NCBI RefSeq assembly: GCF_002287235.1
Contig: NZ_LMVP01000290.1
Coordinates: 1 to 35,599, forward strand
Direction: 5' to 3'
DNA length: 35,599 bases
Source: Methanosarcina spelaei
GTDB lineage: Archaea; Halobacteriota; Methanosarcinia; Methanosarcinales; Methanosarcinaceae
Made by a program: the position numbers and the translations under genes
In this document: positions 28,577-35,599 of the stretch, in pieces
Numbering within the stretch: the first letter of the stretch is position 1
Layout of the letters: every line of letters starts with the position of its first letter
The notes under the pieces: model-generated
Databases searched by the model: none
Told to the model about the DNA's origin: nothing
Seen by the model: the letters and a program-made list of their open reading frames with translations, nothing else

Positions 28577-29176
28577 TATGTCTTTTAGATAAATGGTATC
28601 GTGGCATAACCTACTAATTAAATTCCTGTCATGGCTTACGACCAGTACTCCGATGTTAAGTTCTTCGACAATGTTTAAAACAATGTTCCAGATTTGAGCT
28701 TGGGTAATGGCGTCTACCATTGTAGTAATTTCATCAGCTATTAAATATCTGGTTTTAGGGCTTAGAGCTCTTGCAAGGGCAAACCTCTGGAGTTCTCCTC
28801 CGGAAAGCTCATTGGGCCATCGGTTAAGCCAGTTGTTTTTTATTCCAAAGGCCTCTAAAATATCCTGTGAAACAAGATGTCCTTCGTTTAGAATATCTTT
28901 CATTCTCCATTTCGGATTTACAGCTTTTTCCGGATGTTGAAAGACAAGCTGGACGGGGTTATAACCTTTTGACGGAATTTCGTTTCCATCCATAGTTACT
29001 TTTCCCTGGTACTTAATTTCATAGCCTGCTAAGATCTTACAGAGAGTTGATTTGCCGCTTCCACTGTCCCCAATAAGGCCCAGTACCTCCCCGCTGCGCA
29101 AAGAAATATTAACATCTTTTAAAACCGGATCATTTTTTTTATACTCGAAACTTATGTTCTCACCTTTAAGATGCAT
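28565..29176 (-). CDS. ABC transporter ATPase, OppF/NikE type
   Basis: The product has 203 residues. It is the second ATPase of the importer encoded by this operon and sits on the cytoplasmic side of the membrane. Walker A is GDSGSGKS at 36-43, the Q-loop lies at LVFQHP (77-82), the signature LSGGELQR at 123-130, Walker B YLIADE ending in Glu148, and the switch His181 in VVSHD. It is shorter than OppF (about 300) because the C-terminal oligopeptide-specific domain is absent, as in NikE-like proteins. The start overlaps the preceding ATPase by 11 bases and has GAGGTG upstream. The stop codon comes from a tandem repeat, so the end of the protein may have been set by that repeat. Confidence 0.9.
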   Translation of the reverse strand: MHLKGENISFEYKKNDPVLKDVNISLRSGEVLGLIGDSGSGKSTLCKILAGYEIKYQGKVTMDGNEIPSKGYNPVQLVFQHPEKAVNPKWRMKDILNEGHLVSQDILEAFGIKNNWLNRWPNELSGGELQRFALARALSPKTRYLIADEITTMVDAITQAQIWNIVLNIVEELNIGVLVVSHDRNLISRLCHDTIYLKDINNV

Positions 29177-30179
29177 TATTACACCTCACCACCCCTCCGT
29201 TGACCTGTTTCAATTGAGGAATTCCCCTGGAACATATAGCTTTCTTTTTGGAACATCTGTCATAAAAGATACATCCGTCAATGACTTCATCCTGCATCGG
29301 TTGATGGCCTTTGATTGCCTGAAACTTATTCTGGGGAAGAGCATTCCAGAGTGCACGGGTATACGGGTGCCTCAAGTTCTCACCATTGTTTTTAAAGTCT
29401 TCAACATTCGCTACTTCCAGAACCGTACCTGCGTAAAATACTGCGATTTTATGGGAGATTTTTAGTGCAGCCTCGATATCATGAGTTATGAGTATCACTG
29501 CACACCCCTTATCTGCCATGTCTTTGAAGTAACTCAGGGTCTCATTCAAAGTTTTATCATCTAAGCCAGGGGTTGGTTCATCTGCAATTATAAGTTTTGA
29601 AGAGCTTATTACGGCAGTGGAGACCAGAACTCTTCTGGTCATTCCTCCAGATAGCTCATGAGGAAGCATTCTTTCTACTTCGGGTTTTAAACCGTATCTC
29701 TGAAAAACTTCTCTCTGAAGTTTCTTCATTATACTTTCTTTTTCCTTTTCAACACTTCCTATTACCTGATTCGAGATTTTCATTAAAGGGTCAAGATAGG
29801 TTATAGCTTGCGGAATCAAGGCTATTTCTTTGCCTCTCATTTCTTTTTTTCTTTCCTGAGTAAGTTTTTTACCATCGTATTCCATCTTACCATCTAATTT
29901 TGCATTCAAAGGCAAAATTCCTAAAATCGCATGAGCCAGAAGACTTTTACCCGATCCGCTTGACCCTACGATAGCTAAAATTTCACCTTTATAAGCCTGG
30001 ATACTCAAGTTAGAAATTACTTTCAGTTCAGTCTGCCTGAGTCCTGACGCATATTGAGTGAACGAAAGTGAAAGATCTTCTACTGTCAACAGAGCTTCAG
30101 TTTTTTTCCGATCTCCAGCAACTGTTTCAAGTCCAGTGGATAACTCTTTTTTAGGGTTTATTTCAGCTTTATTTCCCAC
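29166..30179 (-). CDS. ABC transporter ATPase, OppD/NikD type
   Basis: The product has 337 residues. Walker A is GSSGSGKS at 72-79, the signature LSGGMTRR at 176-183 and Walker B LIIADE ending in Glu201, followed by PTPGLD and the switch VILITHD. The C-terminal 70 residues form the Opp/Dpp-type extension with HPYTRALWNALPQ and a four-Cys cluster (GCIFYDRC, AIC and VVRC) that is seen in many OppD proteins and may hold an iron-sulfur or metal site. The start codon is GTG at 30179, with GGAGAG upstream; the overlapping ATG at 30182 is out of frame. A 184-base gap with a 16-bp repeat array separates it from the permease gene upstream. Confidence 0.92.
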   Translation of the reverse strand: MGNKAEINPKKELSTGLETVAGDRKKTEALLTVEDLSLSFTQYASGLRQTELKVISNLSIQAYKGEILAIVGSSGSGKSLLAHAILGILPLNAKLDGKMEYDGKKLTQERKKEMRGKEIALIPQAITYLDPLMKISNQVIGSVEKEKESIMKKLQREVFQRYGLKPEVERMLPHELSGGMTRRVLVSTAVISSSKLIIADEPTPGLDDKTLNETLSYFKDMADKGCAVILITHDIEAALKISHKIAVFYAGTVLEVANVEDFKNNGENLRHPYTRALWNALPQNKFQAIKGHQPMQDEVIDGCIFYDRCSKKKAICSRGIPQLKQVNGGVVRCNNAS

Positions 30180-30363: not shown

Positions 30364-31221
30364 TTATTCATGAGCAATTTTCGGATTTATCAGCTTTCCT
30401 AAATTTTCTCCAATCATATCAAACGCCAGGACTACAATTAACAGAGATAATCCAGGGAAAAACGCAAGCCACCAGTATCCTGCTGAAAGGTACCTCATAG
30501 ATTCGGAAAGAATTATACCGATTGCCGGTTCATGTGGTGAAAGCCCGAATCCCAGGAATGTGACTGAAGCTTCGTGTAAAATCGCATGTGGAAACATTAA
30601 AATTGTGCCTAACAGTATCTGGGGAACCAGATGAGGTAGAATGTGTCTTGTAGCTATCCACCATTTTGACCTGCCAAGATTCCTGGAGATATGAATATAC
30701 TCCTGGGTTTTCAACTGCTTGGTTTCTGCTCTTACGACCCTTGTTAAGCTCGGCCAATGAGTTAATGCAACTCCGGTGATAACTCCTGCTGCTCCCCCTC
30801 CAATTCCTATGGAAATAAGAACTATTAAAAGCAGATGCGGAATTGAAAGAAAGAGGTCTACCAACCAGGATACAAAGGAGTCTGCAGTTTTTCCTGCACT
30901 TGAAAGTAATCCCAGAATTACGGTCAATAGAGTGCTAATTGTGGAAGCGAGCCCTCCAACCAATATACTTAGGCCCAGTCCTTCCAGAGTCCTTATAAAC
31001 ATGTCTCTTCCCATCCAGTCCGTTCCGAACGGATGTTCCAGAGAAGGGGCAAGGTTTTTTGAGCCGAAATTGGTCTGTAGCGGCTCCTCGCCTAAAAACA
31101 CGCTGGAAACCACAATTGCAAGCAATAAAAGTGAAGTGGAACCTATTATCAGAAGCGTTTTTTTCCTGAGGTTTAATCCTCCGAATAGTCCCCTGTTAAC
31201 TGTCACAACAGCAGTACTCAT
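30364..31221 (-). CDS. ABC transporter permease, OppC/NikC type
   Basis: The product has 285 residues. It is an inner-membrane subunit of the importer, with an N-terminal helix (TLLIIGSTSLLLLAIVVSSV) and about five more spans. The periplasmic-side HPFGTDWMGRDMF motif after the first span is typical of DppC/OppC/NikC, and the cytoplasmic EAA-like loop is seen in VTFLGFGLSPHEPAIGIIL near residues 219-237. ATG 31221 overlaps the stop of the upstream permease by four bases (ATGA), so the two permeases are translationally coupled. The downstream ATPase gene is separated by a repeat array. Confidence 0.92.
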   Translation of the reverse strand: MSTAVVTVNRGLFGGLNLRKKTLLIIGSTSLLLLAIVVSSVFLGEEPLQTNFGSKNLAPSLEHPFGTDWMGRDMFIRTLEGLGLSILVGGLASTISTLLTVILGLLSSAGKTADSFVSWLVDLFLSIPHLLLIVLISIGIGGGAAGVITGVALTHWPSLTRVVRAETKQLKTQEYIHISRNLGRSKWWIATRHILPHLVPQILLGTILMFPHAILHEASVTFLGFGLSPHEPAIGIILSESMRYLSAGYWWLAFFPGLSLLIVVLAFDMIGENLGKLINPKIAHE

Positions 31222-32210
31222 ACCAATGCCTCCTGTTGTTTTATCCTGGGATCAATAAATTCATAGATAATATCAGCAATCAGGTTTCCAAAGAAAACAA
31301 ATAAAGTACTGAAGATGACTATTCCCAAAAGCAGCGGTACATCGGATTTCAGTCCTGCTGATACTGCAGTCTGTCCGATTCCGGGATAAGAGAATACCTG
31401 TTCAACAAGGACTGTGCCTCCGAACAATTCACTGAACCCTAAAAACTGCAGAGTAATGGCCGGAAGTGCAACGTTTCGAACTCCATGCCTCAAAATCAGA
31501 TCCAGCCCTTTTTCACCTCTTGCTTTTGCAAATAAGACATAATCACTGGATAGAACTTCGATTAATTTTTCTCGAGTGAACATTGTAATTTTGGCAATGT
31601 CTAATAAACTCAAAGTTATCGCAGGGAGAATTAAACGCTTAAGCCAATCAAAAAACGTCACATTGTCGGCTGTAACCCCTATAGGTACTCTTAATCCTAT
31701 TGGGAACCAGCCCAGATATACCGAAAACACTATTAGAAGCAGCAGTGCCAGCCAGAACGTAGGTGCAGCAGCCAGAGCATAACAATAAGTTTTTATTGCC
31801 TTATCAACCCACGTACCTTGATTCGCGCCCGCTATAATTCCTAAAGCAAACCCCATAATTCCTGAAAGCAGCCAGGAAATCCCCATCAGGATAAGAGAAG
31901 CTGTAAATCGTTCTTCAATGACGTCAATAACTGGAGTTCTATAAATTAGAGAAGTTCCAAAGTCTCCTTTAAGAATATCTCCGGCCCAGTTGAGGAATTT
32001 TTCCTGTGGAGGAGTGTTAACCCCCCAGTACGCTTCAAGTTTAGCTTTGTGCTCTGCGGTTACTGGCATCTCCCCAATATAGGCTCTAACGGGATCTATA
32101 GGCGAATACTGGATAAGCATGAAACTTGCAAAACAAACTATAATCAAAAGGCTTGTCAACCTGAGTGCTTTTTTTCCGATGAAGCTCGCTATTTTTTCAT
32201 TGTTTGACAC
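31218..32210 (-). CDS. ABC transporter permease, OppB/NikB type
   Basis: The product has 330 residues and about six membrane spans. The N-terminal span (LTSLLIIVCFASFMLIQYSP) followed by PIDPVRAY is the mark of DppB/OppB/NikB proteins. The EAA-like motif is at YVLFAKARGEKGLDLILRHG near residues 219-238, and GGTVLVEQVFSYPGIGQ near 260-276 is strongly conserved in the family. The start is GTG at 32210 with GGGAG close upstream. It pairs with the OppC-type permease to form the channel. The 262 bases upstream, before the binding-protein stop, are AT-rich and carry no gene. Confidence 0.92.
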   Translation of the reverse strand: MSNNEKIASFIGKKALRLTSLLIIVCFASFMLIQYSPIDPVRAYIGEMPVTAEHKAKLEAYWGVNTPPQEKFLNWAGDILKGDFGTSLIYRTPVIDVIEERFTASLILMGISWLLSGIMGFALGIIAGANQGTWVDKAIKTYCYALAAAPTFWLALLLLIVFSVYLGWFPIGLRVPIGVTADNVTFFDWLKRLILPAITLSLLDIAKITMFTREKLIEVLSSDYVLFAKARGEKGLDLILRHGVRNVALPAITLQFLGFSELFGGTVLVEQVFSYPGIGQTAVSAGLKSDVPLLLGIVIFSTLFVFFGNLIADIIYEFIDPRIKQQEALV

Positions 32211-32472: not shown

Positions 32473-34185
32473 TCACTTGGAAGTCGAGCTTGCTGTGTCT
32501 ACTCTTTTCCATTCATAGATATTTCCTAAAACATCTGCTCCTGCATTTCTTTGCGGAGTACCCATATCCAGGGTTTCATCTGCCATGTAGAGGTAATCAA
32601 TCGTTACCAGCCATAACCAGGTAGCATCTCCTGCTGGCCCAAAACCGGTACTTCCGTCATATGCAGCTAACTTCCAGTATTTTGTAGCCTGGTCCTGATC
32701 TGTTGACCTAAGAGCTGTTTCCAGATATCCGTCTACAATAGAATTATTATAAAGGCCAGGGTTCCTGTAGGTATCGTCAGCCTCTTTGCTGTGGTACTGC
32801 TGGTAGAGATTAAAGGTATCTATACTGCTGTAAGCGTATAATACAGCTGAACTATACTGGTTAGCGTAGATTTCGTCCCAACTTGCTCCTACAAGGTCTA
32901 TTTTTATTCCTAACTCTTTAGCCTGTTCGCTTACAGCTACTGATAGAGCTTGCCTTGTCTGGTCAGTAGCAGAGTAGTATAACTTGAATTCAGCTTCAGT
33001 TCCGTTCTTCTCCCGAATTCCATCACCGTCGGTGTCTTTCCAGCCTGCGTTTTCCAGTATTTTTTTGGCTTCCTCGGGACTTGAACTGTTAATTTTCGCG
33101 TCAGGGTTCCCGAAGTCCCGCTGGTCTACTCCGGTATATTCTACGGCTCCTTTTCCGTATATGACTCCATCAAGCAGAGCTTTTCTGTCGATACCGATGT
33201 TTAAGGCTTTTCGAATTGTTATGTCTGCTGTGACATTATTGCCTATTGGGTCTCCCTTAAGGCTTTTTTTGCCTGTGTTATACTGCAGAGGGAAGGATAG
33301 TCCCTGAGCCCTTGCTGCCGGAAGATTTACTAACTTATATCCATCTACGGTCTGGTTTGCATGGCTAATTTCAATTTCAGCTATGTCCACATCCCCGGAT
33401 TTTACTGCTGCAAACGCAGTATCTTTATCCAAAAACAGCATGGTTATTTTTTTGAAATATGGCTTTTTTCCATAGTAATTTTCGTTTAATTCTAAGATTG
33501 CCTGCTGCCCCTTGTCCCATTCTACGAGTTTATATGGTCCAGATCCTATCGGATTGGCTCCGTAGGTTTCTTTTTTATATGCATGTTCCGGCACAATCCC
33601 AACGTATCTGAGTCTCCATATGAAACTGGACTGAGGCTCTTTCAGCTTGAATTCAACTGCAGTGTTATTTATTGCCGTGGCTTTTTCGAGATTACTCATA
33701 TCCAGTTCGGAGTTACTTCCAATTGCGGTATTAAACGTAAATGCCACATCTTCTGCGGTTAAGTTTTCACCGTCCGTGAACCTGACATCATCTCTAATAT
33801 GCACAGTCCAGGTATTTCCATCCGAACTGACAGAGTAATTCGTAGCAAGATCGTTTATTATGCTTCCATCGTCAGCTGACTTAAAAAGAGTGCTCTGTAG
33901 AAGTGGCTCAAAATTCACATGCCCGCACCCCCATCCCAGAAGCGGATCAAATCCGGTTTCGGGCTCACCGGTATGCGAATTTACATTCACCACAAGTTCA
34001 TCAGAGCCTTTAGAAGCTGGTTCATCCGAGTCCTCGGAAACGAGTTTATCCGAGCTCCCTGAAATAGATCCATCAGAAACATGGGATGACGAGCTAATCG
34101 GATGACCCATTAATGTAAAAATAAGGATAGCCGATATAATTATGACTCCTGTCCCTATCAGTAGATACTGCTGATTTTTCTGAAT
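32473..34185 (-). CDS. ABC importer substrate-binding protein (SBP family 5), non-AUG start
   Basis: The product has about 570 residues. It captures the substrate (peptide, nickel chelate or similar; not decided by sequence) outside the cell. Family 5 motifs are FEPLLQSTL, the SSDGNTWTVHIRDDVRFTDG block, AEDVAFTFNTA, GSGPYKLVEWDKGQ and RKALNIGIDRKAL. The first ATG (34110) lies after the signal sequence. Upstream in the same frame are the codons for QKNQQYLLIGTGVIIISAIL and IFTL, an evident signal/anchor, and before them GGAGGTG with five bases to an ATT codon at 34185. No ATG, GTG or TTG is available in this frame back to the stop at 34206-34204, so ATT is the likely start. A Ser/Asp-rich linker follows the anchor. 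It heads the five-gene operon. Confidence 0.85.
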   Translation of the reverse strand: MQKNQQYLLIGTGVIIISAILIFTLMGHPISSSSHVSDGSISGSSDKLVSEDSDEPASKGSDELVVNVNSHTGEPETGFDPLLGWGCGHVNFEPLLQSTLFKSADDGSIINDLATNYSVSSDGNTWTVHIRDDVRFTDGENLTAEDVAFTFNTAIGSNSELDMSNLEKATAINNTAVEFKLKEPQSSFIWRLRYVGIVPEHAYKKETYGANPIGSGPYKLVEWDKGQQAILELNENYYGKKPYFKKITMLFLDKDTAFAAVKSGDVDIAEIEISHANQTVDGYKLVNLPAARAQGLSFPLQYNTGKKSLKGDPIGNNVTADITIRKALNIGIDRKALLDGVIYGKGAVEYTGVDQRDFGNPDAKINSSSPEEAKKILENAGWKDTDGDGIREKNGTEAEFKLYYSATDQTRQALSVAVSEQAKELGIKIDLVGASWDEIYANQYSSAVLYAYSSIDTFNLYQQYHSKEADDTYRNPGLYNNSIVDGYLETALRSTDQDQATKYWKLAAYDGSTGFGPAGDATWLWLVTIDYLYMADETLDMGTPQRNAGADVLGNIYEWKRVDTASSTSK

Positions 34186-34190
34186 ATAGA

Positions 34191-34261
34191 CACCTCCTCT
34201 ATTTTACCAGAGTCCTGAACATTTAAGCAAGAATTGGATTGTCAAGTAAGTATTTTTTAAA
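34191..34261 (-). promoter_or_regulatory. promoter and perfect Shine-Dalgarno of the binding-protein gene
   Basis: On the minus strand GGAGGTG (34197-34191) is fully complementary to the archaeal 16S rRNA 3' end and lies five bases before the ATT at 34185. A TATA-like TTTAAAAAATA at 34261-34251 would start transcription near 34228, giving a leader of about 43 bases. Both elements point to translation beginning at 34185 rather than at ATG 34110. Confidence 0.6.
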
Positions 34262-34597
34262 CCTGTCCAGATGACCGGAATCTTTTATTAAATAACATTT
34301 TCTTGATAAAAATATGATATAAAATATTACTTTTTTCAGTAAAGTTAAGATAACACAATTAAAACAATTTACTATAAATACATTCCGAAATTTATGTATT
34401 ACTAATTATTAGTCTTCAGGAGTTCAGTAACACTAAATAAAAAATTTTATGCATTTTTTTAAATTTGAAAATTGTCGATGCATTGTGTAGTGAGAAAGTA
34501 TAATTTTGGCGACCCTAAAAGATAGCCAATAGCCGATAAATATATTTAAAATGAGACGATAGGACTCAGTTCCAAAATCTAGTGATGAAAGTAAGTG
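34262..34597. other. AT-rich divergent intergenic region with a probable transposase promoter
   Basis: No coding region is seen. AAATATATTTA near 34536-34546 could be the TATA box of the transposase gene, with a start near 34572. The left end of the insertion sequence must lie in this region, but its terminal repeat cannot be recognised because the right end is outside the window. Confidence 0.35.
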
Positions 34598-34656: not shown

Positions 34657-35599
34657 ATGGTAATTATAAATCTTACTCTTAATAACTTATCGGAACTCCC
34701 TGCTCTCTCATACCTTTTTGATAGTTATAGCAATGATTACGAATATACCACAAGAGGAATTTTTCGTAGAAAAATTCCTCCAGCCTGCCCTATTTGCAGT
34801 GCTCCTATGGTTCATAACGGCTATAATCTATACATCAAAAAAGGTCTTGGAAAAATCAGCATTGGTCGATACAAATGCCAAAATTGTGGTAGTACAGACG
34901 AAGAAGATCATAGTTTTTGGGAAGGTCTGAAAACTTTACTTTTTGATTCATTTAATAATTTTTTCCAGGTGCTCAGATACCATAAAGTTTCTTATGATGG
35001 AATTTCTGATATAATGAGCTTCATATTTCCAAGATCAAGAAGCACTATTTTTAGAACATTCAACAAAGAAATGGAACAGGAAAATGTTCCAATTTTAGAA
35101 AATGTACATATGGTGCACTATGACGAACAGCATCCAAAAGAGGGACGTTGTCAGAAATACCGTTTAACATTACTGGATGCAAAAACTCAAAGAACAATAG
35201 CAGATGAACTTTTTGAGGATAAAAGTTCAGAAACCATCAAAACGTTTCTACGAAAAAATCTAGATACATCAGAACCTGTGTTTATTGTTACGGATTTTGA
35301 TAAGAGATACCCAGATATTTTAAAGGAAGTTTTTGGGGATAAGTTAGTGCATCAATACTGTTTGATGCACTTAAACAAGCTTATAGTTAGCGATTTTCCG
35401 AAGAAAACAACAATTGAACAGGAACTATTAAAATACAGGTTATTGAATATATTTTACAATCGTGAAAATGAGATTAAATTCCTGGAAAAAATTCTATCTG
35501 AAGAACTTAACGTAATTATGAATGAAGAAAAGCATCAAGAATGGAGTATAAAGGCAAAAAAGGAATTTAACCGATTTAGATATAAATTGAAGCTAGAAA
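34657..35599 (+). CDS. DDE-type transposase with zinc finger, truncated by the window edge
   Basis: The frame from ATG 34657 is open for 314 codons to the last base. The N-terminal part has a zinc-finger pattern, CPIC then YKCQNCGS about 30 residues later, for binding the element ends. The catalytic domain shows a first Asp in MVHYDEQHPKEG (near residue 165) and a second in VFIVTDFDKRYPDIL (near residue 215), followed by HQYCLMHLNKL, a Cys-His segment common near the second Asp in several transposase families. The third acidic residue should lie beyond the window. Similar transposases are frequent in Methanosarcina; I cannot name the IS family with certainty. A shorter frame at 34718-34930 in the same DNA is a shadow. 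The gene looks intact as far as it goes. Confidence 0.85.
   Translation, partial: MVIINLTLNNLSELPALSYLFDSYSNDYEYTTRGIFRRKIPPACPICSAPMVHNGYNLYIKKGLGKISIGRYKCQNCGSTDEEDHSFWEGLKTLLFDSFNNFFQVLRYHKVSYDGISDIMSFIFPRSRSTIFRTFNKEMEQENVPILENVHMVHYDEQHPKEGRCQKYRLTLLDAKTQRTIADELFEDKSSETIKTFLRKNLDTSEPVFIVTDFDKRYPDILKEVFGDKLVHQYCLMHLNKLIVSDFPKKTTIEQELLKYRLLNIFYNRENEIKFLEKILSEELNVIMNEEKHQEWSIKAKKEFNRFRYKLKLE

Follow-up and report, generated by a model that had tools for sequence, protein, structure and literature searches.

Does the gene for a solute-binding protein in Methanosarcina spelaei begin at an AUU codon, and is such a start an accident of one strain or a feature of its lineage? The question arises on the minus strand of a 35,599-nucleotide stretch of DNA, the window, in which the frame of this gene extends from stop to stop over 34203..32473. 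Read on the minus strand, the region around its presumed start is TAG AGG AGG TGT CTA T-ATT CAG AAA AAT CAG CAG TAT CTA CTG ATA GGG, where the hyphen directly precedes the ATT. The elements of this region are as follows.

34204..34206, minus strand: in-frame TAG upstream of the start, 18 nt upstream of the ATT (direct reading)
34191..34197, minus strand: Shine-Dalgarno (SD) sequence GGAGGTG, with 7 nt between its GGAGG core and the ATT (direct reading)
34183..34185, minus strand: putative ATT start codon of the binding-protein gene; ATT, ATC or ATA stands here in 36/36 distinct start regions
34108..34164, minus strand: hydrophobic signal or anchor segment, about codons 8–26, conserved in relatives and lost with a start at ATG 34110
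34108..34110, minus strand: first in-frame ATG, the choice of a gene finder limited to ATG, GTG and TTG, unsupported as the real start
32473..34185, minus strand: solute-binding protein of the SBP_bac_5 family, 570 amino acids counted from the ATT (Pfam PF00496; closest solved relative YntA)

Direct reading of the window places the ATT, GGAGGTG, TAG and ATG where the original prediction had located them, and five bases, TCTAT, separate GGAGGTG from the ATT. That prediction had also held that no ATG, GTG or TTG occurs in frame between the upstream stop and the N-terminus, the ATG at 34110 being the first, and that a start there would drop an in-frame hydrophobic segment; both statements are borne out. 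An Rfam scan near the start found no riboswitch or other RNA family, and folding of the start region revealed nothing unusual (z 0.65). A short upstream ATG frame was considered and rejected; it is not conserved and is lost in some relatives.

The protein satisfies the requirement for SBP_bac_5 membership (PF00496, 244.7 bits, E 2e-72; gathering cut-off 32.4), and its closest solved relatives are structures of the Yersinia nickel-binding protein YntA (PDB 4ofl/3ry3; E about 1e-115 over 488 residues). Against the NikA equivalog model TIGR02294 it scores 176 bits, with a curated cut-off of 393, which suggests a relative of NikA rather than an equivalog; the NCBIfam nickel models score under their cut-offs. 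The gene order is binding protein, two permeases and ATPase, all on the same strand. By homology, the substrate of this importer is likely nickel, and nickel binding is itself an inference. The remaining genes of the importer and the elements upstream of the start are listed below.

31218..32210, minus strand: ABC permease 1 of the importer (PF00528, E 3e-40; Opp/Nik B-type models below cut-off)
30364..31221, minus strand: ABC permease 2 of the importer (PF00528, E 2e-21)
29166..30179, minus strand: ABC ATPase of the importer (PF00005 and oligo_HPY)
34372..34381, minus strand: TATA-like GTATTTATAG, conserved in relatives in an alignment of upstream regions; a possible promoter, without functional data
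34396..34433, minus strand: inverted repeat GTGTTAC-N24-GTAATAC, upstream of the TATA-like box; GTRTTAC...GTAAYAC in relatives

Row L003 of the upstream alignment, which has the wrong orientation, is disregarded. The inverted repeat at 34396–34433 is a possible operator, perhaps for a metal regulator, for which there are no functional data. At the contig end, a transposase-like frame (34657–35598) occupies the place of the relatives' tandem binding-protein paralogue, and a paralogue of comparable grade was sought in this genome and not found. In several relatives (L032, L034, L036, L040, L043), the tandem binding-protein genes have CRISPR repeats (CRISPR-DR7) a few kilobases away.

The search for relatives drew on a separate genome collection as well as on 31 genomes of the genus and 112 of the family; genera are labelled g1 to g27. 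The relatives yielded 36 distinct start regions, taken from Methanosarcina and one sister genus and representing both the orthologue and the tandem paralogue, although locus counts are not independent events. The start codon is ATT in 27 of these regions, ATC in eight and ATA in one, and ATG, GTG, TTG and CTG never occur at this position among the 36. GGAGG lies exactly 7 nt upstream of the ATH codon (ATT, ATC or ATA) in all of them, so the close SD spacing that the original prediction had remarked on goes beyond chance. Thirteen different codons occur at position −1, and in 16/36 start regions the codon there is a stop; therefore, no upstream in-frame start could serve all of them. The two paralogous clades, ~55–60% identical and in most relatives arranged in tandem, both carry the ATH start, making the feature at least as old as the duplication. 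One sister-genus locus (L056, in g4) also starts with ATT; it groups with the upstream paralogue clade. A tree of 33 rows requires at least six changes among ATT, ATC and ATA and none to ATG; with only about six third-base changes, this absence alone is weak evidence of selection against ATG. Homologues in g11 and g12, two other genera of the family, have an ATG start and a different signal peptide, as do those in clostridia.

The codons that follow the ATH position vary in a pattern expected of translated sequence. Across codons 2–11, variation is 0.07 at second positions and 0.24 at third positions, and pairwise single-base codon differences are synonymous in 1193 cases vs 941 non-synonymous. 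In several relatives, the hydrophobic stretch ends in a lipobox-like SGC. The segment after the ATT is, judged by these patterns, coding-like; with the SGC and the stop codons just ahead of the ATH position also considered, codon 1 remains as the start.

The AUH start is not unique to the binding-protein gene; several unrelated genes of the lineage have one, which goes beyond what the original prediction considered. A screen of 1.2 Mb from one complete Methanosarcina genome (G029) looked for SD-bearing coding frames that continue in the 5' direction beyond their first ATG, GTG or TTG, and candidates were then checked for conservation in relatives. Methanogenesis marker protein 11 (TIGR03280) has AAGGAGG-N7-ATT in 34/34 loci (L133–L166) from Methanosarcina, g4 and g5; its predicted N-terminal part includes TKHINACALDNR..., and sampled loci of other genera mostly have an ATG further in. 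In a CooC-like ATPase the codon is ATA in 8/8 (Methanosarcina, g4, g5), with ATG in four further genera; in a CDP-alcohol phosphatidyltransferase it is ATC or ATA in 9/9, and in an RND exporter it is ATT in 7/7 and either ATT or ATA in two further genera. For a DUF362 protein, five genomes have ACG and three have ATG, and another protein has ACG in three. Starts switch between ATA and ATG in a hydantoinase and a DUF169 protein, and they also switch in a coiled-coil protein, a universal stress protein and a DJ-1-like protein. Two patterns emerge: in some genes the near-cognate start is fixed, and in others it exchanges freely with ATG.

Some further observations accompany this screen. Marker 11 is distantly related to TiaS (NF040849, E 6e-8), the tRNA-Ile2 enzyme for reading AUA; any relation of this to AUH starts is probably chance. 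Two genes appear to be ACG-started behind AGGAGG (L219, L222, L223, L236 and G029:C1:349540; L259, L260 and G029:C1:202829), and in the DUF362-like gene ACG is replaced by ATG in some relatives. GGAGG-N7-ATT also occurs in two genomes (G029:C1:2524505, G001:C1:615729) before a product that begins ISKEELLQELA and resembles methylamine corrinoid proteins. A pirin gene was excluded for its ambiguous start.

The frequency of such starts was estimated in genes where no canonical start is served by an SD, by counting codons that lie 6–8 nt downstream of an SD-like site and ahead of the first canonical start. A first version, diluted by gene-internal sites, gave a weak result (ATH 61 vs 50), and after that result had been seen, the filter was narrowed to codons that precede the first canonical start. 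With the narrowed filter, the 1.2 Mb sample of G029 contained 14 ATH sites vs 4.7 expected (p 1e-4) and four ACG sites vs 0.4 (p 8e-4). In a second Methanosarcina genome (G001), sampled over 400 kb, there were eight ATH sites vs 2.4 (p 0.002) and five CTG sites vs 0.4 (p 5e-5), and over 400 kb of a g11 genome, four ATH sites vs 0.8 (p 0.004). The expected excess in both Methanosarcina samples is ~26 genes in ~1060 gene calls, an order-of-magnitude figure, and all these figures rest on samples of genome stretches rather than whole genomes. A strict GGAGG scan found too few sites for use. An E. coli control (200 kb) had one near-cognate site in 63 tested genes, which fits background but has little power; because this control is too small, the habit cannot be called special to archaea.

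The original prediction had left open whether the AUU start is genuine or an ATG-to-ATT mutation. A mutation or base error confined to this strain, weakening the gene, would need only one base, as ATT is a single step from ATG, but the orthologues refute it: ATG never stands at this position, and ATH is present in all relatives, a 96%-identical one and the paralogue clade included. Independent genomes carry ATH, which excludes a base-call error, and we give this account virtually no credence. The same comparison supports the genuine start. Alternatively, a downstream ATG or TTG could be the real start and the upstream segment an untranslated leader that merely looks coding. An ATG is indeed present at 34110 in the window, and 14/36 relatives have a TTG at codon 8; however, these candidates shift position among relatives and are not conserved, and the ATG matching 34110 is missing at that place in many orthologues. 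The SD is tied to codon 1 in 36/36, codons 2–11 behave as described above, and a start at 34110 would cost a secreted protein its export signal, which homologues elsewhere possess. Orthologues beginning at the later Met without the signal segment would, according to the original prediction, have spoken against the AUU start; instead, the segment is conserved and the later ATG often absent. A downstream start is accordingly very unlikely. Even less can be said for a true start further upstream, reached through stop readthrough or frameshifting. The in-frame stop here is a TAG, and Methanosarcina has tRNA-Pyl and can insert pyrrolysine, yet codon −1 in relatives is TAA, TAG, TGA or a variable sense codon. 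There is also no upstream protein conservation, and the short ATG frame (MFRTLVK, then a stop) is missing from some relatives.

A different objection accepts the AUH starts as genuine and takes them to be neutral, near-cognate codons being tolerated behind strong SDs without regulatory meaning for the importer. The hydantoinase, DUF169, DUF362, universal stress and DJ-1-like genes swap ATG with ATA, ATT or ACG among close relatives, and this free exchange fits tolerance as well as selection. Against neutrality, no ATG is found over three genera in marker 11 (34/34), the CooC-like ATPase (8/8) or the binding-protein family (36/36). Neutrality remains a serious rival, to which we assign a chance only somewhat short of even.

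A genuine, weak, SD-dependent AUU start of a YntA-type nickel-binding protein, in a lineage where near-cognate starts are in regular use, is nonetheless highly probable as the explanation of this locus, with initiation itself inferred. The identity of the codon, its conservation, the fixed SD spacing, the coding-like signature and the same anatomy elsewhere are all observed. In the proposed mechanism, the strong SD (GGAGG) at its optimal 7-nt spacing would position the 30S subunit on the AUU, and Met-tRNAi would pair with it despite the third-base mismatch. The non-AUG start appears to be old and kept, drifting among AUU, AUC and AUA without reaching AUG in Methanosarcina and the sister genus, and would be one case of a habit of placing AUU, AUC, AUA, ACG and CUG behind good SD sites. 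Because the pairing is weaker, output from near-cognate starts is probably lower and dependent on initiation-factor stringency. In Sulfolobus, aIF1 favours discrimination against non-canonical starts (PMC6237735), from which it follows that near-cognate output should be lower and should depend on factor levels. Against the AUU reading, an M. mazei Ribo-seq paper lists, in the text consulted, ATG, GTG, TTG and CTG starts and no AUU (PMC11456600). That ribosomes initiate at this AUU and insert methionine, and that output is lowered and its level regulated, are inferences without N-terminus, ribosome-profile or reporter data. It is plausible that the start limits importer expression, for which there are no expression data.

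The initiation factor aIF1A takes part in start selection, and its own gene starts at CTG, preceded by GAGG(T/A), both in Methanosarcina and in almost every locus read across four families of the class, paralogues included (L284–L333, L237–L247, L271–L275; G029:C1:1525802). Each Methanosarcina genome carries several aIF1A paralogues. The exceptions are five g11 loci with TTG, one locus with ATG directly before the CTG and one without the CTG. By analogy, autocontrol of aIF1A through its CTG start is possible. More speculatively, in Methanosarcinaceae an aIF1A that is CUG-started throughout the class might set its own level, via how strictly start codons are selected, and thereby tune genes started by AUU, AUC, AUA, ACG or CUG, the nickel importer among them; we consider such a stringency regulon doubtful. 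No report of a CUG start in aIF1A was found in the openly licensed literature.

The start codons described for archaea are AUG, GUG and UUG (PMC7531240), and a survey of 36 genome groups, which rests on annotated starts, saw hardly any switching to AUU or CUG (PMC5622118). We found no openly licensed paper on AUU starts in Methanosarcina, although such absence is no proof of novelty. Near-cognate starts as such are already known; no description was found of a conserved AUH on a transporter gene of an archaeon and on further genes of the lineage. Standard annotation overlooks such starts, and several other genes of these archaea appear affected. If the starts are used, a measurable share of methanogen genes have wrongly annotated N-termini and hence wrong export signals. 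Start selection by aIF1 and aIF1A could then be studied on natural near-cognate starts in a genetically tractable archaeon, and an archaeal counterpart of infC autocontrol, in aIF1A, would become testable.

Among known systems, the binding protein resembles the nickel-binding proteins YntA and NikA in sequence (YntA, 488 residues) and in importer gene order; it differs in being archaeal and in having an N-terminal segment reachable only from the AUU start. Deinococcus deserti likewise has non-canonical initiation codons, reportedly found by proteomics in work by Baudet from 2010 (cited in PMC3219674), as far as its title tells, but is a bacterium. The classical case of translational control by an AUU, AUC or AUA start is bacterial infC, encoding IF3, for which Butler is said to have found in 1987 (cited in PMC9845219) that the AUU start gives autocontrol. 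The comparison with infC drawn in the original prediction holds as an analogy of anatomy: here too, a conserved AUH start lies behind an SD at fixed spacing (36/36) and has been kept over long evolution. In contrast, infC encodes a factor that discriminates against its own start, whereas the present product is a transporter binding protein in an archaeon without IF3. Autoregulation of the infC type requires the product to be an initiation-fidelity factor; a solute-binding protein is not one, and the gene is therefore not under infC-type autocontrol. The nearer functional parallel to infC is aIF1A, itself an initiation factor with a non-AUG start.
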